Source: a virus
DNA: 20,047 bases
Direction: 5' to 3' (one strand)
IMG/VR virus record: IMGVR_UViG_3300042691_053159
Coordinates: 1 to 20,047 of that record
Shown piece after piece: positions 2,843 through 19,302 of the stretch (its first letter is position 1; every line of letters starts with the position of its first letter). The notes beneath the pieces are model-generated. The model was not told the origin of the DNA. It searched no databases and was given only the letters and a program-made list of their open reading frames with translations. The position numbers were made by a program, and so were the translations under genes.

Positions 2843-3031
2843 ATGTCGACACAGACCCACCTCGACGCGCTCACGGCCAAGCACAGGGATTGCGAAGCGC
2901 AACTCGCCGATGCCGTATCCCATGCCTCGTCCAGCGATCAGGAAATCGCCGAGATCAAGCACCGGAAGCTCCAACTCAAGGATGAGATCGCCGCGATCGA
3001 GTCAAGGTTACGGTCAAGCGTCAGCGCCTGA
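2843..3031 (+). CDS. YdcH / DUF465 family small protein
   Basis: This 62-residue, nearly all-helical protein (HLDALTAKHRDCEAQLADAV, IAEIKHRKLQLKDEIAAIES) has the YdcH/DUF465 pattern: a charged helix, a short turn, then KRRKL-x-LKDEI. Family members are short coiled-coil proteins of unknown role, common in proteobacteria and their accessory elements. AGAGAGGTACC precedes the ATG. The last 18 bases overlap the 3' end of the opposing methyltransferase gene, so the two genes converge with no terminator between them. Confidence 0.85.
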   Translation: MSTQTHLDALTAKHRDCEAQLADAVSHASSSDQEIAEIKHRKLQLKDEIAAIESRLRSSVSA

Positions 3032-4300
3032 AGGCGCTCCAGTGGAGCGTTTCAATCGCTGATCCTTGAGATCATCAAAGGTCCGGTCCTCGCCGTCCAG
3101 CACGGCCCTGTTGCCGGTATAGTCCTGCCAGCGCTGGACGATCACATCGACGTATTTTGGATCAAGCTCCATGAGCCGGGCTGACCGGCCCGTGCGTTCA
3201 GCGGCGATCAGGGTGGTGCCCGAGCCGCCGAACAGGTCGAGCACGATGTCCCGGCTCTTGGAGGAATTGGTGATGGCGCGCTCGACGAGTTCCACCGGCT
3301 TCATGGTGGGGTGCAAATCGTTGACGCGCGGCTTGTCGACGAACCAGACGTCACCCTGATCGCGGGCCCCGCACCAGTAATGGTCGGCCCCCTGCTTCCA
3401 GCCATAGAGGATCGGCTCATACTGGCGTTGGTAGTCGGCGCGGCCGAGGGTGAAGGTGTTCTTGGCCCAGATGATGAAGGTCGACCACTTGCCACCGGCA
3501 TCGGCGAAGGCCGTCTGTAGGGTATGGAGCTCGGAGGAGCTCATGCAGACGTAGCAGGCGCCTTTGGTGACGAGGAGCAGGTTCACGCAGGTGTCGTAGA
3601 GGAACTGGTAGAAGCTGTCGCCCAGGGCGTCGTTCAGGATGCGGCGGTCCTTGGCGATGGTCTTGTTCTTGGCTGCGTTGCCGTAGTCGACGTTGTAGGG
3701 CGGATCGGTCACGGCGAGGTCAGCCAGCTGCCCGCCCATGAGGCGTTCGACGTCTGTAACCACGGTTGCATCGCCGCACAACAGCCGATGCTCACCGAGA
3801 ACCCACAGATCACCGGGGCGAGATGTAGGAGCGACCGGTACCTCGGGAAGCTCGCCCTCCTCCGCTTCGGCCGCGGTTTCGGCGTCGAGGCCGGCGAGGT
3901 AGCGGTCCAGATCGGCACTCTCGAAGCCCAGAAGGTCCAGTTCGAACTTCTCCGCATCAAGTTCGCGGATCAGGTTGGAGAGAGCGGCCTCATCCCACCC
4001 GGCGTTCAACGCCAGCTGATTGTCGGCGATGACGAGCGCCTTGCGTTGGGCGTCGGACAGGTGGCCGAGACGGACGACCGGAACCTGCGCCAGACCTAGC
4101 CGCGTGGCTGCGGCGAGACGGCCGTGCCCCGCGATGATCGTGCCTTCTGCGTCGGCGAGGATCGGATTTGTCCATCCGAACTCCCGAATGCTGGCGGCGA
4201 TCTGATCGATCTGTGTGTCCGAATGGGTGCGCGGGTTCCCGGAGAACGCCGTCAGCGCGGACACATCCACGCGCTCGATGCCGTAGCTCTCAGGAATCAT
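3014..4300 (-). CDS. ParB-N domain / N6- or N4-DNA methyltransferase fusion
   Basis: The protein has 428 residues. Residues about 8-135 are a ParB/Srx-type nuclease-like domain (GNPRTHSDTQIDQIAASI, IIAGHGR at 55-61, RLGLAQVPVV). Residues about 160-400 are a DNA methyltransferase with DPPY at 199-202, HPTMKP at 330-335 and the SAM-binding FGGSGTT at 357-363. DPPY comes before FGGSGTT, so it is a beta-class enzyme. This fusion is frequent in phages and mobile elements of alphaproteobacteria, usually as an orphan methyltransferase without a partner endonuclease, and none is seen next to it here. The start at ATG 4300 is taken because AGAGGTAGC precedes it; a longer frame to 4381 has no such signal. 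It uses SAM, which the metK cassette at 14247 would make. Any functional link is conjecture. Confidence 0.93.
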   Translation of the reverse strand: MIPESYGIERVDVSALTAFSGNPRTHSDTQIDQIAASIREFGWTNPILADAEGTIIAGHGRLAAATRLGLAQVPVVRLGHLSDAQRKALVIADNQLALNAGWDEAALSNLIRELDAEKFELDLLGFESADLDRYLAGLDAETAAEAEEGELPEVPVAPTSRPGDLWVLGEHRLLCGDATVVTDVERLMGGQLADLAVTDPPYNVDYGNAAKNKTIAKDRRILNDALGDSFYQFLYDTCVNLLLVTKGACYVCMSSSELHTLQTAFADAGGKWSTFIIWAKNTFTLGRADYQRQYEPILYGWKQGADHYWCGARDQGDVWFVDKPRVNDLHPTMKPVELVERAITNSSKSRDIVLDLFGGSGTTLIAAERTGRSARLMELDPKYVDVIVQRWQDYTGNRAVLDGEDRTFDDLKDQRLKRSTGAPSGADA

Positions 4301-4319
4301 TGCTACCTCTTTGCGGAAA

Positions 4320-4399
4320 CTGCGTAGATGGAACTGCGGAGCTTGGCTCCGCTGCTGGCAGATACACGTAGGTAGATTCACCTACGGAGATCTACGCAG
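4320..4399. repeat. Nested inverted repeats upstream of the methyltransferase
   Basis: Three inverted repeats are packed into 80 bases. An outer pair joins CTGCGTAGAT (4320-4329) with ATCTACGCAG (4390-4399). Inside it, CGGAGC (4337-4342) pairs with GCTCCG (4346-4351), and CGTAGGT (4367-4373) pairs with ACCTACG (4380-4386). The set lies 20-99 bases upstream of the methyltransferase start, where its promoter or an autoregulatory operator would be. Confidence 0.5.
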
Positions 4400-8882: not shown

Positions 8883-10781
8883 TCATTCCATCACCTCCCG
8901 GAGCCATGCCGGCATCGATTTCTGGTCGGGGAACGTGGGGGAGGATGGGTTCTGACGTTCCCCCAAACGTTCCCCGGCACAAGGCTCTGATTTTGTTGGC
9001 TGAGGGGAAGGTGGGGAACGTGGGGAGGGTTTTTCCGGCTCTTCCTTCACAGGCGCGCGCGTGTGCGCGTGCGTTAGTGTTGGAAAACGTTCCCCACGTT
9101 CCCCACGTTCCCCGGAGGCTTCAAGATCAATGGCTTGGCTCGGGGAACGTTCGAAACCAACGTTCCCCTCCGAGGCACAACGTTCCCCGCTCGACTCCAA
9201 ATCCGACCCCGGAAAACGTTCCCCACGTTCCCCGGCAATCACGAGCTGCCACTGCTGGGCCTGATGCGTCACGCCAGCGGCTCGGAGTCGGATATCAAAA
9301 CCTGCCACCCGGAAGACGCGGTCGCGCATCCGGCCGAGCGCCTTTCCCAGCCGCGTGCGCTGCGACTTGTCGTTTCCGGTGCCAAGCGGAAGGGGCGGCT
9401 CACAGCCGACAGCCACCTCATAGAGGTCGCCCGAGCGAACCTCGGCTGTTCCGTAACGCGACCACCAACCACTGACGAAGGCGGCCCAGGCGCTCCCCTC
9501 GGCATCCGAAGCCGCCATCATCTCATCCAGGTTTCCGAGGAAGCCCTCGATGCCTGCGATTTCCACAATGCCGCCGATGGTGCCGGCCCAGTTCTCGTAG
9601 GAACCGATGGTCTTGCCCCCGCGCGGGCGACCGGCAGCGATCCATGCTTGAACAAGGGTAAGACAGGCAGCGACGAGACGCGCCCGGTTGGCGCGCACCC
9701 AGGTCATGAGATCGGGATGGCGGAAACTCCCACGCTGCCAGGGGCGCTCGACATGCGCATCGAGCCTGATGCGCACGAGGCGGCGTGCCATCTCGTTGGA
9801 GAATTCGGGATTGTTGCCAGTGGCGATCCAGACACAGCGGATCGGCAGCCGCGCCATCTCCGAGGCGCCGAGGATGCGGTCCTCCCAGAAGGGTGCCGTG
9901 AGCGCCGCGGCAACGGCTGAGCTGTCCAGCTTGTTGCGGAGGTTGTCGATGAGTAGGATCGATGGCACCTGCCGGAGCTTGGCGGTGACGCGCTTCCGCC
10001 ACTCCTCGTCATCCCGGCCCTCCGTCATGACACTGGCGCCCAAGCCCGTCAGGATGGTGGCGATCGAGTCCACCATGAGCGTGGCGCCCGTCCCCGGTGT
10101 CGGCTTTTCGATGAGGTGAAGCGGTGTGGGCCCGTCGATCATCGAGCGCACGAAGCCAAGGAGCAGCAGCGCCACGGCATGCGCCATCTCGGAGGGTGAG
10201 ACGAACGGGAAGTCCCCCAGCAGGTCCTCGCAGATCAGGGACCGGGCCTCGGCGATCTGCCGCGGCGATGGACGCTCCGGAACGGCCGGAACGCTGAAAC
10301 CCGGTGCCGGCTGGTAGAGCAATCGCGCATCCGGATGATAGCCGGGGCCGGTGAGCAGCTTGCCGTTCCGGCCGAACACCGGCGTGTTGACGATTCCCAT
10401 CAGAACCGGGAGACCGGGATCAGGAGTGGCAAGCACGGACTTCACGACCGCCACCGGCGGCGGCGCAGGCACGATCTCACCCTTGCTGTTCGAGCGGACC
10501 CAGCTCGCGAGCCTGGCCAGCATGTGACGAAGCCTGTCTTCATTCAGGGCCGCGGCAACAGGGCGTCCCTCATCGTCGGGCACCACCCATGTCGGCTGGC
10601 CGGCGTAGCGGAAGAGCCAGGGCGACCGGTTCGAGGTGAGCAGCAGCGACCACACCCGCTCGACGGCACGCGCAAGATCGCCCTCGTCGGCCCGTAGCAC
10701 CGGCGGATCTTCGGGGCCGTTCAGATAATTGAGCGGCCGATGCTGACCGATTTCCGGAGAAGCCTCTTCTGGCCTGGGCAA
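8883..10781 (-). CDS. Phage-type replication ATPase, N-terminal half apparently missing
   Basis: The frame codes for 632 residues from TTG 10781. It stays open to 10856, adding NPDAVRAAIKAA, which looks like real coding. Residues about 225-240 (KPTPGTGATLMVDSIATI) sit where a P-loop would, but Ala replaces the usual Lys. SILLIDN (274-280) is the Walker B-like strand. ATGNNPEFSNEMARRLVRIR (320-339) is the sensor and arginine region. I recall relatives having a Toprim or primase part upstream; here that part is absent and the frame begins at the edge of a low-GC insert. From about residue 515 the tail is Ser/Pro/Glu-rich with repeated GER and GERFP units. By context it acts as the DNA-unwinding ATPase of the resolvase operon. 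The ATPase class is firm. The truncation is inferred. Confidence 0.75.
   Translation of the reverse strand: MPRPEEASPEIGQHRPLNYLNGPEDPPVLRADEGDLARAVERVWSLLLTSNRSPWLFRYAGQPTWVVPDDEGRPVAAALNEDRLRHMLARLASWVRSNSKGEIVPAPPPVAVVKSVLATPDPGLPVLMGIVNTPVFGRNGKLLTGPGYHPDARLLYQPAPGFSVPAVPERPSPRQIAEARSLICEDLLGDFPFVSPSEMAHAVALLLLGFVRSMIDGPTPLHLIEKPTPGTGATLMVDSIATILTGLGASVMTEGRDDEEWRKRVTAKLRQVPSILLIDNLRNKLDSSAVAAALTAPFWEDRILGASEMARLPIRCVWIATGNNPEFSNEMARRLVRIRLDAHVERPWQRGSFRHPDLMTWVRANRARLVAACLTLVQAWIAAGRPRGGKTIGSYENWAGTIGGIVEIAGIEGFLGNLDEMMAASDAEGSAWAAFVSGWWSRYGTAEVRSGDLYEVAVGCEPPLPLGTGNDKSQRTRLGKALGRMRDRVFRVAGFDIRLRAAGVTHQAQQWQLVIAGERGERFPGSDLESSGERCASEGNVGFERSPSQAIDLEASGERGERGERFPTLTHAHTRAPVKEEPEKPSPRSPPSPQPTKSEPCAGERLGERQNPSSPTFPDQKSMPAWLREVME
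8928..9233. repeat. Twelve copies of ACGTTCCCC in 306 bases
   Basis: Nine plus-strand copies start at 8955, 8967, 9087, 9096, 9105, 9160, 9180, 9216 and 9225. Three inverted copies (GGGGAACGT) start at 8928, 9013 and 9142. Three copies at 9087-9113 are back to back, as are the two at 9216-9233. All lie in the tail of the ATPase gene, where the inverted complement GGG-GAA-CGT codes for Gly-Glu-Arg. An alternating purine-pyrimidine tract lies between copies at 9053-9073. Confidence 0.85.
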
Positions 10782-10819
10782 TGCGGCCTTGATTGCGGCA
10801 CGGACAGCATCGGGGTTAG

Positions 10820-10879
10820 GCGATATACGCGGGCAGGAATTAAGAGGCCGCCATCTCTACCATTCAGCTAGCGCCGTGA
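10820..10879 (-). other. tRNA-like remnant, not a functional tRNA
   Basis: On the minus strand, TAGCTGAATGGTAGAG (10870-10855) matches a tRNA D-arm almost exactly. Eight bases later CTCTTAA (10846-10840) matches a tRNA-Lys(CTT) anticodon loop. The D stem does not close, the anticodon stem is imperfect, and there is no T-arm (GGTTCGA) or CCA end. It looks like the 5' half of a decayed or disrupted tRNA gene. It sits between the stop of the low-GC nuclease gene and the truncated start of the ATPase frame. Confidence 0.3.
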
Positions 10880-10880
10880 G

Positions 10881-11546
10881 TCAAATGCGGATACCACCAT
10901 ACCTTTTGAAGAGCTCAAGGTTATCAGCGTCAAATTGATCATCTCGCTGGAATTGTCTATCGAATGTATGCCCCATCGTGAGATAATTGTTCTCATTCCA
11001 GTACCATGGCTGCAAAACAAGCGTTATCGTCTTAGAACCTAAATACCTGTCAAGGTGAGCATACGCCCATAACTGCGCCCAGCAGTTGGGCCATGTACTT
11101 GGGTCAGTCTCGCCATATAGCAATTCATCACGGGATTTATTCGTTGTCTTGCGTTCGAAGACTATGGCGTGAGATTCTGATCGGTTCACAAGCACAAGGT
11201 CCGGCTTACCCCTAAGCTTTCTATTATCACTCGATCTTAAAAGAACAGATGACTCCAAGATTTCACTATCTTCTCCTTTATCGCAGTAATCAACAGACCA
11301 AATGTCGTTGTTGGTGGCATTCCACTTTGGGCGCAGATGATCTCGTCTTATCTCCTCAATCGTGAAATGCGCCAAGTAGCCCATATACTTTTTGATCTCC
11401 TCAGCATCAAATCTGCTCGATCCACCTCCTTGATTAGACATACCATGCGATGGCCGAAATAAAGACCGCCTCAATCGCGATCCGACTTCAGTATCAAACA
11501 CCCAACTGGCAAAGTTTGACGCTGTGAATGGCCGATCATTTGTCAA
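10881..11546 (-). CDS. PD-(D/E)XK nuclease-like protein (RecB/Cas4 type)
   Basis: The protein has 221 residues. RGKPDLVLVNRSESHAIVFERKT (112-134) holds the PD motif (115-116) and the E-x-K motif (131-133). NCWAQLWAYAHL (154-165) holds a QxxxY motif (158-162), the combination typical of RecB/Cas4-type nucleases. The first 100 residues are unassigned. No ATG fits: the frame begins at TTG 11546, directly after a TAA, with GGTGAGATAA as ribosome binding site. Base composition is much lower in GC than in all neighbours, which points to recent transfer. It overlaps the end of the exonuclease remnant by 11 bases. A defence or DNA-repair role is possible; no partner gene is seen. Confidence 0.72.
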   Translation of the reverse strand: MTNDRPFTASNFASWVFDTEVGSRLRRSLFRPSHGMSNQGGGSSRFDAEEIKKYMGYLAHFTIEEIRRDHLRPKWNATNNDIWSVDYCDKGEDSEILESSVLLRSSDNRKLRGKPDLVLVNRSESHAIVFERKTTNKSRDELLYGETDPSTWPNCWAQLWAYAHLDRYLGSKTITLVLQPWYWNENNYLTMGHTFDRQFQRDDQFDADNLELFKRYGGIRI

Positions 11547-11660
11547 TTATCTCACCAAAATCATTGAGGGCGTCATCAGTCCTGATCGCCGTAATTGCAG
11601 GATTTGGTCATAGATGGCATCGCTGTCCGTCGTTTCGGTGTCGTAGAAGACAAACGTCAT
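11536..11660 (-). pseudogene. N-terminal fragment of an exonuclease I-like gene, frameshifted
   Basis: From ATG 11660 the frame reads MTFVFYDTETTDSDAIYDQI and LQ, the N-terminus of SbcB/DnaQ-type 3'-5' exonucleases, with the Asp-x-Glu catalytic motif at residues 7-9 (YDTETT). The frame then leaves the family (LRRSGLMTPSMILVR, stop at 11549-11547). In the next frame the match resumes: TAIRTDDALNDFGEIIDK, like the AIRTDxxxNxxGE stretch of E. coli exonuclease I, with its stop at 11538-11536. One missing T at about 11593-11596 (CAATTA where CAATTTA would encode Gln-Phe) explains the switch. About 42 of the family's roughly 470 residues remain. The rest is replaced by the nuclease gene. Confidence 0.72.
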
Positions 11661-11688
11661 GGATATTCTGCCTCGCCCCTCAGGTCCT

Positions 11689-13590: not shown

Positions 13591-13608
13591 GAACATAGCA
13601 TCTAGATT

Positions 13609-13702
13609 GGGTCGACGCCCAAACCAACCTGCCTTCCCGGGCAAGGTGGTATCCGAGAGGAGATGCGGCTTGAAAGAGCAATCATACGGGGTGCGTCGAC
13701 CC
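13609..13702 (+). promoter_or_regulatory. Long-range inverted repeat in the leader RNA
   Basis: GGGTCGACGC (13609-13618) pairs with GCGTCGACCC (13693-13702), a perfect 10-bp stem that would enclose 74 bases of the predicted leader. It ends 22 bases before the DUF3293 start. It may be an RNA structure; the core GTCGAC could also serve as paired protein sites. No known riboswitch class was recognised here. Confidence 0.4.
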
Positions 13703-13724
13703 TCCGAGTTATGAGGGATCAGGA

Positions 13725-14153
13725 ATGGCGCAGACGGAAATCTCATCGGAAAAGATCAGGGCCTACGAGGCTACCGACTATCGTACGGGTAGTGGAGCTG
13801 ATGCATTGGTTCTGCGGATCGGGCAGCATTCGCCCAAGCTTGCCTTGCGCTACAAGGACACTGGCGCGGATTGCGCCCTCTTCATCACGGCCTTCAATCC
13901 CTTTGGACGGAAGCAGGATGATGCCGCCAACAAGGCCGCTCATGCGCACCTCGGCGAGCGAATCCGCGCAGATTCGGAGCTCGTCATTGAAGGTGAAGGA
14001 GCCGATCCCACTGGGAAGTGGAAGCCAGAAAGAAGCTATCTCGCCTTCGGGATCAACGCCGCTGCCGCACGGGAACTGGGACGACATTTCCAGCAGGACG
14101 CGGTGGTCTGGATCGGAAAGGATGCTGTCCCGCAATTGCTGCTGCTTCGCTGA
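13725..14153 (+). CDS. DUF3293 family protein
   Basis: The protein has 142 residues. Recognisable parts are IRAYEATDYRTG, LVLRIGQHSPKL, ALFITAFNPFGR (where the family has AFITAWNP), GEGADPTGKWKPERSYLAFG and LGRHFQQDAVVWIG. DUF3293 proteins have no known activity. The start is ATG 13725, with GAGGGATCAGGA just upstream. It is the first gene after the strong promoter and lies 27 bases before the SAM-II element, so it is transcribed upstream of the riboswitch and should not respond to it if control is translational. Its presence beside metK suggests a role in the same cassette. Confidence 0.85.
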   Translation: MAQTEISSEKIRAYEATDYRTGSGADALVLRIGQHSPKLALRYKDTGADCALFITAFNPFGRKQDDAANKAAHAHLGERIRADSELVIEGEGADPTGKWKPERSYLAFGINAAAARELGRHFQQDAVVWIGKDAVPQLLLLR

Positions 14154-14180
14154 GTTCTCGGTCTGGCCAACCTGACTGGC

Positions 14181-14238
14181 CGGGGGGATTTGATCCGGAT
14201 TGCCGCCCCCGACATCACGTCGAACGCGGCTAAAAGGA
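14181..14238 (+). promoter_or_regulatory. SAM-II riboswitch upstream of metK
   Basis: Stem P1 is CGGGGG (14181-14186) with CCCCCG (14206-14211). Its loop, GATTTGATCCGGATTGCCG, has the SAM-II conserved GATTTGA and ATTGC. The pseudoknot pairs GCCG (14202-14205) with CGGC (14227-14230), followed by the conserved GCTAAAAGG. TCC (14194-14196) can then pair with GGA (14236-14238), inside the metK ribosome binding site. That is the known SAM-II design: bound SAM locks the pseudoknot and hides the ribosome binding site. Confidence 0.9.
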
Positions 14239-14246
14239 GAAGACGA

Positions 14247-15395
14247 ATGTCCATTCGCAATGGCCTTTTCACCTCCGAGTCGGTGTCGGAGGGCCATCCC
14301 GACAAGCTCGCGGACAGGATTTCCGACGGAATCCTTGACGCTTTCCTGAAACGCGATCCCGACGCCAGGGTGGCGTGCGAAACGCTGCTCGCCGACCAGT
14401 GCATCGTCGTCGCCGGGGAGTTCAGGACGAGGCGCATCGAGGATTTCCGGGCAGTCCGCGAGGAAGCCGTCCGCCTGGTGCGGCAGGTGCTGCAGGATGC
14501 CGGCTACACCGACAGCGACACCGGCATCGATCCCGACCGGTGCGAAGTCCAGATCAGGTTCAACGGCCAGTCGCAGGACATCAACCAGGGCGTAGACCGT
14601 GAGGACGGGGTTCTCGGAGCTGGCGACCAGGGCTTGATGTTCGGCTATGCCTGCACCGAGACGCCCGAGCTGATGCCGGCGCCCATCGTCCATGCCCACC
14701 GCCTGGTACAGCGGCAGGCAGAGCTCAGGCGGAGCGGCACCCTGCCGTGGCTTCGTCCCGACGCGAAGTCCCAGGTCACGTTCCGCTACGAGGACGGGCA
14801 GCCGGTGGAGATCGAGGCGGTCGTGCTGTCGACCCAGCACGGCGCCGAGATCGGGCTCGAGGACGTACGATCCGCCGTCCAGGCGCACATCGTCGATGCC
14901 GTCATACCGAAGGATCTGATGTCGAGGAGTTTTCGGACATTGATCAACCCGACCGGCCGCTTCGTGACGGGCGGACCCAAGGGCGACACTGGCGTCACGG
15001 GCCGGAAGATCATCGTCGATACCTATGGCGGGTCGGCGCCCCACGGCGGTGGCGCGTTCTCGGGCAAGGACCCGTCGAAGGTCGACCGATCCGCGGCCTA
15101 CATGGCGCGGTTTCTCGCGAAACAGGCCGTCGCACGCGGCTGGGCCTCGCGCGCCCTCGTGCAGTTGTCCTACGCCATCGGCGTCGCGGAGCCCGTGAGC
15201 TTCGCCGTGGAAACCTTCGGCACGGAAAGGGATTCCGGCCGGGACATCGGCGCCGTTCTATCCCAGGAGTTCGATCTTCGACCGCAGGCGATCATAGAGC
15301 GCCTCGACCTCAGGAGGCCCATCTACTACCCGACGGCTGCCTACGGTCACTTCGGCCGCACGGATATCGAGCTTCCCTGGGAGGCGGTGCAGTGA
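14247..15395 (+). CDS. metK: S-adenosylmethionine synthetase
   Basis: The protein has 382 residues and the full MetK pattern: [19 protein letters not shown] (8-26), the ATP-binding [12 protein letters not shown] (124-135), [14 protein letters not shown] (166-179), [20 protein letters not shown] (233-252) and the phosphate-binding GGGAFSGKD (267-275). It makes SAM from methionine and ATP in the cytoplasm. The motifs follow the E. coli enzyme closely ([20 protein letters not shown]), which I take as a sign that this is an acquired extra copy. The ATG follows the SAM-II element and AAAAGGAGAAGACGA, so the product SAM should shut off its own synthesis. The GTG of the next gene overlaps its stop. 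Confidence 0.97.
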
Positions 15396-15969: not shown

Positions 15970-16314
15970 ATGTACGGAAACCTGAAACTCAAACCCCTGC
16001 TGACACCTACGCCAGGCATCGGCGGGAGATCGAGAACCGAGCTGGGCCAGCAGTACTTGCAGGTCCTTGCAGCCTGCGACGCATTGCTGAAGGCGCTCGA
16101 TGAGGCGGCGCCCGCCGACCCTGAAGACGGCCCGGCACTGGCCGCAAGTGGTGCAAGGGCCCGGGAGCCCTGGCGTGAACGGACCGACCTCATCCAGGGG
16201 CTCCGGTCAGAGTTCGAACTCGTGACAATGAAGATCGCGATCGGCTGGGGTGAAGGCACTAGCGGCTCACAGGAAAGCGACGGTACCGGATCTCCAGAGA
16301 TCACCCTGGGCTGA
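15970..16314 (+). CDS. Unknown helical protein
   Basis: The protein has 114 residues. AGAAGGAGACTGC before the ATG is a strong ribosome binding site. The middle part is helical (ELGQQYLQVLAACDALLKAL, LIQGLRSEFELVTMKIAIGW), and the ends look disordered. There is no signal peptide. It is the last gene before the second SAM-II element, separated from the preceding gene by 55 bases. The function is unknown. Confidence 0.6.
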   Translation: MYGNLKLKPLLTPTPGIGGRSRTELGQQYLQVLAACDALLKALDEAAPADPEDGPALAASGARAREPWRERTDLIQGLRSEFELVTMKIAIGWGEGTSGSQESDGTGSPEITLG

Positions 16315-16328
16315 CCCACCTCAAGGGT

Positions 16329-16385
16329 CGGGGAATTTGAATCCAGCTTGCCGCCCCGGCATTCCGCCAAACCGGCTAAAGAGGA
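16329..16385 (+). promoter_or_regulatory. Second SAM-II riboswitch, before an unknown gene
   Basis: Stem P1 is CGGGG (16329-16333) with CCCCG (16354-16358). The loop has AATTTGAATCC and CTTGCCG, where the class has GATTTGA and TTGC. The pseudoknot pairs GCCG (16350-16353) with CGGC (16373-16376), followed by GGCTAAA. TCC (16342-16344) can pair with GGA (16383-16385) in the ribosome binding site GAGGAG of the gene at 16394. The layout matches the metK element base for base in architecture but differs in sequence, so it is not a recent copy. Confidence 0.82.
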
Positions 16386-16393
16386 GACGAGAC

Positions 16394-16828
16394 ATGTCGA
16401 ACGACGCCGTACTGCATACCCCCTTCCCGTGGACGCGCCACGACGATGGCGGAACCTTGCCGGGAGTCTACGTGAAACGCGGCGGATTCCGATACGGACC
16501 TCAGGCTTCGGACTGGATCTGGGGACCCAGAGGTCCCGGGTACGGCGTGGTCGCAGATTGCTCGCCCCATGCCCCCGCCACCCAGGAGACAGTCGCCAAT
16601 GCGAGGATCATCGCCGCCGTTCCGGACCTGATCGCGGCGCTCGAGGCATGCGTGGCGGAATTCCGATCCCTCGCCGCAACGAATGGCAAAGCCGGAATTC
16701 CGGAGGTGTGTGCCGAGGCAATCGCGGCACTGGACCTCGCCTTTGGACGAGCCTCTGGCCCAACCAGCGCTGAAGATCAAGCCGTTCACGCGCGGGAGTG
16801 GCCGGTATTCGCGGAGGCCGCGCGATGA
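16394..16828 (+). CDS. Unknown phage-type protein under SAM-II control
   Basis: The protein has 144 residues. Its middle, TVANARIIAAVPDLIAALEAC (about 63-83), is the NARLIAAAPELLEALE helix seen in many small phage proteins of unknown role. The N-terminus (TPFPWTRHDDGG, WGPRGPGYGVVADC) is the part that precedes it in such proteins. The ATG at 16394 is set by GAGGAGACGAGAC, which the riboswitch would mask. The next gene overlaps by ATGA. I know of no link between this type of protein and SAM. If the riboswitch is real, expression rises when SAM is low. Confidence 0.7.
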   Translation: MSNDAVLHTPFPWTRHDDGGTLPGVYVKRGGFRYGPQASDWIWGPRGPGYGVVADCSPHAPATQETVANARIIAAVPDLIAALEACVAEFRSLAATNGKAGIPEVCAEAIAALDLAFGRASGPTSAEDQAVHAREWPVFAEAAR

Positions 16829-18030: not shown

Positions 18031-19302
18031 ATGACCGCTTTCCCGATCCCGAAGCTTGATGAACTCTCGAAGATCCCGGCCGGGCTTCTCTATCCCCACC
18101 AGGCAGATGGAGTGGCCTTCCTGCTGTCGAAGAAGCGCGTTATTCTCGCCGACGATATGGGCTTGGGCAAAACCAGGCAGGCCATCGTCGCGATGAATGT
18201 CGGGGCACCCGAAGGAGCTATCCTCGTGGTCTGCCCCGCCTCCCTCAAGCTCAACTGGCGGCGCGAGATCCGGATGGTCGATCCAGATGCCGTGGTGGAG
18301 ATCATCGGTGCAAAGGATGGCGCCCCCAACGGGACGCCGCGATGGGTGATCGTCAATTATGACCTGCTCACCAGGAACGCCGCCCGGCTGCACGACATCC
18401 CCTGGGCCGGGGTGATCCTCGACGAGGCTCACTTCATCAAGAACGCCAGTCAGCGCACCGGCCACTGTCTGAAGCTGCTGGGTGTCCAGAAGGAGGCCCG
18501 TGCGCCCGTCATCGGTCCGCAGTACGTGTTCCTGCTGACCGGCACCCCGATGACCAACCGGCCGCGGGACCTGTTCAACCTGCTCCGCTGCGTCGGCCAC
18601 CCGGCGGCGCGTTCCTTCCTGTCCTTCGCCAAGCGCTATTGCGACGCCTACCAGAATGACTTCGGCTGGGTGACGACTGGCGCCTCGAACCTCGAGGAGC
18701 TGAACCTCCTGCTCAAGGAGGTCTCAATCCGCCGGAAGAAGGAGGAGGTTCTCGATCTGCCGCCGAAGGTGCGGAGCTGGGTACCGGTCGATGTCGCCTC
18801 GAGCCCTTCGGCGGTCGAGAGTTCGCTGGCCTTCATCCGGTGGTATGCCGCCACGGATCCGGCAAACCCCAACGACAAGCAGTTCCTGGCCAAGCTCATG
18901 AAGGTGAGGACTGCCCTCCACAAGGCCAAGCACAAGGCCGTGGAGGAACGGATCTATGACGTTCTGGAGACGGGCCAGAAGGTCGTGGTGTTCACCTCCT
19001 TCACCGAGGGTCTGAAGCGCCACGCCAAGACGCTGGGCGCCTCCTGCGTGACGATTTCCGGGTCGGACACGGCCGAGCAGCGCCAGGCCGCCGTCGAGCG
19101 CTTCCAGGACGATCCGGAGGTCCGGGTTGCGGTCTGCAACCTGATCGCCGGCGGCGTTGGCATCACGCTCACCGCAGGCACCCACGTTATCTTCCAGGAC
19201 CTCGACTGGGTGCCGGCGAACCATGCCCAGGCGGAGGACCGCTGCTACCGCCTGCGCCAGAAGAATCGGGCTACAGTGGAATACGTCTACGCCCGACGAT
19301 GA
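18031..19302 (+). CDS. SNF2-family DNA helicase/translocase, C-terminus short
   Basis: The protein has 423 residues. The order is that of SMARCAL1-like SNF2 proteins: YPHQADGVAFLL (21-32), Walker A DDMGLGKT (41-48), Walker B DEAH (131-134), LTGTPMTNRP (169-178), then a RecA2 domain with KVVVFTSF, AGGVGITLTAG and motif VI QAEDRCYRLRQ. It moves along duplex DNA using ATP. After motif VI, relatives usually have a further stretch (YMVAEGTIDE...); here the frame stops at VEYVYARR. The start at ATG 18031 is chosen because the ATG at 18025 is only one base from the GAGGAG. It is the last gene of the SAM cassette. Confidence 0.9.
   Translation: MTAFPIPKLDELSKIPAGLLYPHQADGVAFLLSKKRVILADDMGLGKTRQAIVAMNVGAPEGAILVVCPASLKLNWRREIRMVDPDAVVEIIGAKDGAPNGTPRWVIVNYDLLTRNAARLHDIPWAGVILDEAHFIKNASQRTGHCLKLLGVQKEARAPVIGPQYVFLLTGTPMTNRPRDLFNLLRCVGHPAARSFLSFAKRYCDAYQNDFGWVTTGASNLEELNLLLKEVSIRRKKEEVLDLPPKVRSWVPVDVASSPSAVESSLAFIRWYAATDPANPNDKQFLAKLMKVRTALHKAKHKAVEERIYDVLETGQKVVVFTSFTEGLKRHAKTLGASCVTISGSDTAEQRQAAVERFQDDPEVRVAVCNLIAGGVGITLTAGTHVIFQDLDWVPANHAQAEDRCYRLRQKNRATVEYVYARR

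Follow-up and report, generated by a model that had tools for sequence, protein, structure and literature searches.

The window analysed here is the whole of a virus record of 20,047 bases, which is a fragment without end repeats. It contains a 221-residue open reading frame (ORF) of low GC content for a nuclease, started by TTG, between a primase/helicase gene and the stump of an exonuclease gene (Table 1). The nuclease ORF has a GC content of 0.452 and a GC3 of 0.468, compared with 0.655 and 0.747 for the flanking primase gene and 0.584 and 0.697 for the PAN-domain gene on the opposite flank. The lowest GC contents among 666-base stretches of the record were found in the nuclease region (0.447), and the rest of the record bottoms at 0.535. 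When 850 bases of the nuclease region were shuffled 2000 times at the mononucleotide level, no stop-free frame of at least 221 codons arose. Both the composition step and the 221-codon ORF are real, and the ORF was confirmed as given in the first-pass annotation. The same annotation had placed a sharply distinct insert at 10881-11660. Its base composition does differ sharply from both sides, but its extent had to be revised to about 10826 to about 11536-11560. For the PAN-domain protein, no relatives were found in viral contigs.

Table 1. Coordinates of the features discussed, with strand and basis of assignment.
Feature	Position	Strand	Basis
Primase/helicase without about 334 N-terminal residues	8883..10826	-	comparison with intact relative L007
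Left joint (J1), end of primase homology	10811..10826	none	right-most homology extents in 80 loci
Foreign tail 3' of the nuclease stop, containing a 15-base string like a tRNA D-arm	10827..10880	-	
ORF of 221 residues, TTG start; apparently 5'-truncated PD-(D/E)XK nuclease	10881..11546	-	motifs; N-terminal lengths of relatives
Right joint (J2), boundary of exonuclease stump and nuclease	11536..11560	none	range is an estimate
N-terminal stump of DEDDh exonuclease, about 41 codons, one frameshift	11537..11662	-	read in two frames
MetK-like S-adenosylmethionine synthetase, right arm	14190..15395	+	
SNF2 helicase, right arm, without about 135 C-terminal residues	18025..19302	+	comparison with L094

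For analysis of the left border, the primase was compared with 80 viral loci (the best 80 of 152). The window ATPase (632 aa) corresponds to the C-terminal portion of a longer primase/helicase. Depending on the relative, homology stops between 10727 and 10826: the right-most extent was 10826 in 5 of the 80 loci, 10817 in 4, 10814 in 9, 10811 in 21 and smaller in the remaining 41. The primase is therefore cut at about 10826, and the foreign segment starts there and not at 10881. Upstream of the homologous part, the frame stays open for at least 338 further codons in 77 of the 80 loci; the three exceptions are L045 (110 codons), L055 (101 codons) and L064 (0 codons, contig edge). In the intact primase of L007, the first part holds DUF7146 and Toprim_3, and the match to the window does not begin until residue 334. 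No credible match to this first part was found elsewhere in the window. With the match from residue 334 and the longer upstream frames in 77 loci, the truncated ATPase noted previously is real. Within the 3' part of the primase gene (8927-9233), direct and inverted repeats of the GAACGTTCCCC type form a cluster.

Upstream of the primase, 74 of the 80 loci carry a homologue of the L005 nuclease, which PHROGs assigns to the Cas4-domain exonucleases (phrog_1990, E 4.6e-73) and which is 252-275 aa long among the 58 distinct copies listed. Six loci lack it: L028, L030 and L064 have little upstream DNA, and L007, L058 and L082 lack it despite more upstream DNA. tblastn gave no credible match to the L005 nuclease in the window. 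An origin of the window gene by divergence from the nuclease native to this lineage was rejected (hhalign probability 0.4%). The low-GC nuclease is thus not a constant neighbour of the ATPase in related genomes. A different nuclease holds this place in 74 of the 80 relatives, and the insertion reading therefore stands unrefuted.

At the right border, the exonuclease stump is truncated on its 3' side, and its end coincides with the beginning of the nuclease. Read through across both frames, it matched RNase_T (E 2.6e-5), so the broken exonuclease reported on this flank is genuine; the best match was an annotated Mesorhizobium plasmid exonuclease with 59.5% identity (E 6e-6). On two plasmids inspected, a helix-turn-helix regulator and an ImmA/IrrE peptidase are followed by an intact exonuclease of the stump's gene type. 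These cassettes are located at L118:4102-6407 and L119:4089-6410 in alphaproteobacterial plasmids. The TTG of the nuclease lies within, or adjoins, the frameshifted stump; TAA directly upstream of it closes the nuclease frame, and GGTGAG is found 4 bases upstream of the TTG. Repeats marking a transposon were not detected in the region, which contains only repeat pairs of 10-18 nt. A perfect 12-base inverted repeat (10978-10989 and 11544-11555) has one arm inside the J2 range. An inversion by way of this repeat is opposed by family homology on both sides.

A tRNA-like remnant had been described on the ATPase side, and this flank was not supported. ARAGORN called 0 tRNA genes, Rfam at E 10 gave no match to either a 1001-base or a 37-base piece (a 5' part may be too short), and the sole tRNA-like match was the 15-base string AGCTGAATGGTAGAG at 10855-10869 on the minus strand. 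Exact copies of AGCTGAATGGTAGAG were found in 15 viral stretches. Two of these, of the same sequence, lie inside ARAGORN-called tRNA-Phe genes, three are tRNA-like sequences in tRNA arrays which ARAGORN did not call, and the remaining ten have no called tRNA nearby. It is at most a lead that the window piece might be the 5' part of a tRNA cut at J1. A tRNA-like gene on which ARAGORN is silent was observed in three viral contigs rich in tRNAs (L125:2354, minus strand; L130:870, minus strand; L132:4430, plus strand). By reading, its D-loop is enlarged, the two halves of the D-stem being about 27-30 bases apart; the anticodon loop has TTC (Glu), and the T-arm is normal.

In the window nuclease, the catalytic core is present (D116, E131, K133, Q158 and Y162). 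In an alignment of eight family members, P115 and these five residues were invariant in 8/8, which bears out the PD-(D/E)XK and QxxxY motifs recognised in the first-pass annotation. P-D followed by E-x-K and then by Q-x-x-x-Y is the motif pattern of RecB/Cas4/lambda-type nucleases. Searches with the window protein matched DUF4350 in Pfam (E 0.1), the PHROG 298 exonuclease in PHROGs (E 0.0027), Cas4 followed by DruK in PADLOC (E 0.0061 and 0.017) and cas4 in NCBIfam (14.5 bits, cutoff 65). Shedu (SduA_C, E 0.12) and PDDEXK_1 (E 0.14) were each matched by one family member. As judged from these four libraries, the family has only weak matches, none of which appears convincing. The earlier description as a RecB-like nuclease of unknown family can thus be kept with refinement: by motif the protein is RecB/Cas4/lambda-exonuclease-like, and it belongs to a small family with weak library matches.

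For identification of relatives, the window nuclease was used in tblastn searches, which matched four plasmid records, one Cupriavidus strain accounting for two of them, and no phage record. A search of viral contigs that reaches close relatives found none, and no relative was found among the sequences of solved structures; a profile run against eight viral records, of which three are rich in tRNAs, also gave nothing. Scanning genome contigs with an alignment of four sequences yielded 41 candidate stretches and 4 relatives. Genomes with a family match numbered at least 1 of 385, at least 2 of 369 and at least 3 of 399 in three samples; each count takes in the genome on which the search was centred and is a lower bound, with up to 5 or 6 first-look candidates scored per genome. 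Altogether, 10 distinct relatives were found, and the family is rare in the genome samples searched.

The window protein was compared with the relatives in L085 (Pseudoroseomonas) and L086 (Paraburkholderia), Variovorax WP_162590329.1 and Cupriavidus WP_011154064.1. It is 24-34% identical to these proteins and shares with them an N-terminal FxxW motif, PDL...ExK, WPN...QLWxY and a C-terminal LF. The relatives are 237-366 aa long, whereas the window copy has 221 aa. The conserved core of the family, from FxxW to the C-terminal LF, is kept in the window protein, which has 11 residues ahead of FxxW versus 75-170 in 10/10 relatives (76, 112, 81, 129, 120, 170, 77, 82, 106 and 75), the latter being upper bounds, with the longest frame, from its earliest possible start codon, taken for 8 of the 10 relatives. 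In the alignment of eight members, the region ahead of FxxW is partly conserved among several relatives. The window gene looks 5'-truncated by this comparison, and its N-terminal part and native start would have been lost. Since the core is intact and lies downstream of the cut, it is possible that the predicted nuclease retains residual activity.

In 9 of the 10 relatives, the nuclease gene is lower in GC content than the rest of its locus. Integrases are encoded near the L085 and L087 relatives, a transposase near the L088 relative and, as read from the sequence, a resolvase near the L136 relative. Full-length family members sit on plasmids and near integrases or transposases, and two of them near defence genes.

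The two sides of the low-GC segment appear to belong to different phage lineages. The SNF2 protein of the right arm is 72% identical to that of L094, the MetK 49% and an HD-type protein 40%; the protein encoded at 13725-14153 is 39% identical to L094 and 44% identical to L096. The window SNF2 protein has 425 aa versus 560 aa in L094, and homology stops at 19293. Its missing C-terminal part would include a likely zinc-binding end, by sequence reading. Right-arm stretches at 13598-13705, 14094-14240 and 16308-16398 match L094 or L096; the latter two match overlapping parts of L096 and may be a repeated element. For co-occurrence analysis, the records of 23 of the 80 primase loci were searched over their whole length. 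MetK was found in 0/23 and SNF2 as one distant match (35%, record of L077), with L094 as positive control matching both, while none of the three SNF2 records (L094-L096; control L007) contained the primase; many of the records behind this test are fragments. The window holds both sets, the primase on one side and MetK and SNF2 on the other, with the foreign scrap in between, and in the records tested the arms were not found together elsewhere. At least four genes of the record look truncated. The right-arm MetK-like S-adenosylmethionine synthetase occurs in one record with a ParB-domain DNA methyltransferase (3014-4381, minus strand) on the other arm.

Taken together, the segment at about 10827-11543 is probably a short foreign scrap lying where two parts of a mosaic phage, or of a decayed prophage, meet. 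A left arm of a lineage with primase, RuvC and ParB-methyltransferase would have been fused through the scrap, by illegitimate joins at J1 and J2, to a right arm of a lineage with MetK and SNF2. These joins would have removed the N-terminus of the primase, the 5' part of the gene for a rare stand-alone PD-(D/E)XK nuclease and the 3' part of the exonuclease gene. The intact proteins of this family are presumably metal-dependent DNA nucleases of the RecB/Cas4/lambda-exonuclease class, and we infer that plasmids and other kinds of mobile DNA carry them as accessory genes. The window copy, with its core kept but apparently devoid of the N-terminal part and native start, is most likely not a working gene. 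Several points do not fit readily. Intact catalytic residues and 221 undamaged codons are unexpected in a long-decayed fragment; a recent event or selection possibly accounts for this. L045 and L055, relatives by their primase, also have short upstream frames. The GGTGAG ahead of the TTG, the upper-bound N-terminal counts of eight relatives, the low confidence of the models and the fragmentary state of many records in the co-occurrence test likewise count against this reading. The two joints are known from this record alone.

An assembly chimera, in which two phages and a bacterial or plasmid scrap were misjoined into one contig, is unlikely. Genes cut at both joints, two arms not seen together in the tested records, the lack of close nuclease relatives in viral contigs and a fragmentary record without end repeats all speak for such an artefact. 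However, two joins within 0.7 kb around a real, partly truncated gene need two misassemblies, and repeats in the region are no longer than 10-18 nt. Because the two joins sit only 0.7 kb apart, a chimera is considered less likely than a natural mosaic or decayed prophage.

We regard as very improbable a functional replacement, in which the foreign core does the job of the Cas4-type exonuclease that the lineage has upstream of the primase. The window nuclease is of the same superfamily, lies in about the same place and has an intact catalytic core, and the native nuclease of 74/80 relatives was not found here. Against this stand the loss of about 334 primase residues at the same joint, the missing N-terminus of the window nuclease and the absence of a sequence relation between the two nucleases.

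Equally doubtful is an intact anti-phage defence gene carried as phage cargo, as the first-pass annotation had suggested with a defence gene that landed in a replication module. The gene does look foreign and does interrupt a phage replication module, but a working defence gene is not supported because of the apparent 5' truncation and because other truncated genes border the scrap that contains it. A look for the same nuclease in defence islands had been suggested, and known defence genes were found near 2 of the 10 relatives, on Cupriavidus pHG1 (GajA and GajB of Gabija and two AbiJ-like proteins) and in Rhodoferax (a TIR protein). The lower GC content of the relatives' genes than of their own loci is likewise as expected of accessory genes. 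A PADLOC scan of neighbours covered 10 proteins from 5 of the 10 relatives; in Variovorax, the topoisomerase adjoining the relative matched DpdF in part (E 3.5e-21). The window nuclease itself has no convincing match to a defence model, with its best PADLOC match at E 0.0061. Among 10 other window proteins, PADLOC matched the methyltransferase (MTase_II, E 3.3e-161) and the SNF2 helicase (ZorD/DpdE-type, best E 2.1e-40) and none of the other eight. Both are also strong members of phage families and common phage gene types, and at a distance of at least 6 kb neither adjoins the nuclease. In a further reading, the catalytic core of a nuclease belonging to an undescribed and rare family of accessory genes took the place of both the phage Cas4-type exonuclease and the Toprim part of the primase, which would mean a rebuilt replication module with end-processing by a former plasmid or island nuclease; this is very improbable.

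A working swap of nuclease types within a replication module would merit attention; nothing here shows one. The main lesson is that a low-GC 'insert' can be scrap from a recombination joint, as we propose for this segment. Full-length family members could be tested as nucleases or defence proteins.

For structural comparison, models of the L085 relative and of the window protein were used. The L085 model had a mean pLDDT of 57, with the best core blocks in the 80s, and gave high ranks to Cas4 (Z 9.6), DinG (8.8), MGME1 (8.7) and AdnAB (7.8), with LHK-Exo at 7.3; for the search tool used, top Z values of 7 to 8 are commonplace. Foldseek with this model gave nothing at E <=0.001. The model of the window protein (mean pLDDT 56.8) had DinG (E 1.9e-4), RecE, Wolbachia CidB and lambda exonuclease as its top four matches. 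The structural lists also hold unrelated entries, such as viral cap-snatching endonucleases, eIF3d, Wolbachia CidB and restriction enzymes. At this low model quality, the class alone was drawn from the lists, and a RecB/Cas4/lambda-exonuclease class is plausible for the family.

Like the window gene, the L005-type Cas4-domain exonuclease (phrog_1990) is located upstream of the primase, and by its family name it is of the PD-(D/E)XK type. A sequence relation between it and the window family was not found by profile or tblastn searches. The L005 exonuclease has 253 aa, and its C54, C240, C243 and C249 are invariant in 12/12 aligned sequences. Cas4 with an iron-sulphur cluster carries a cysteine cluster, whereas the window nuclease is without one and has C88 and C155 as its only cysteines. 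With the Cas4/RecB-type and lambda-exonuclease-type nucleases, the family shares the order of the motifs and, as the low-confidence L085 model suggests, possibly the fold.
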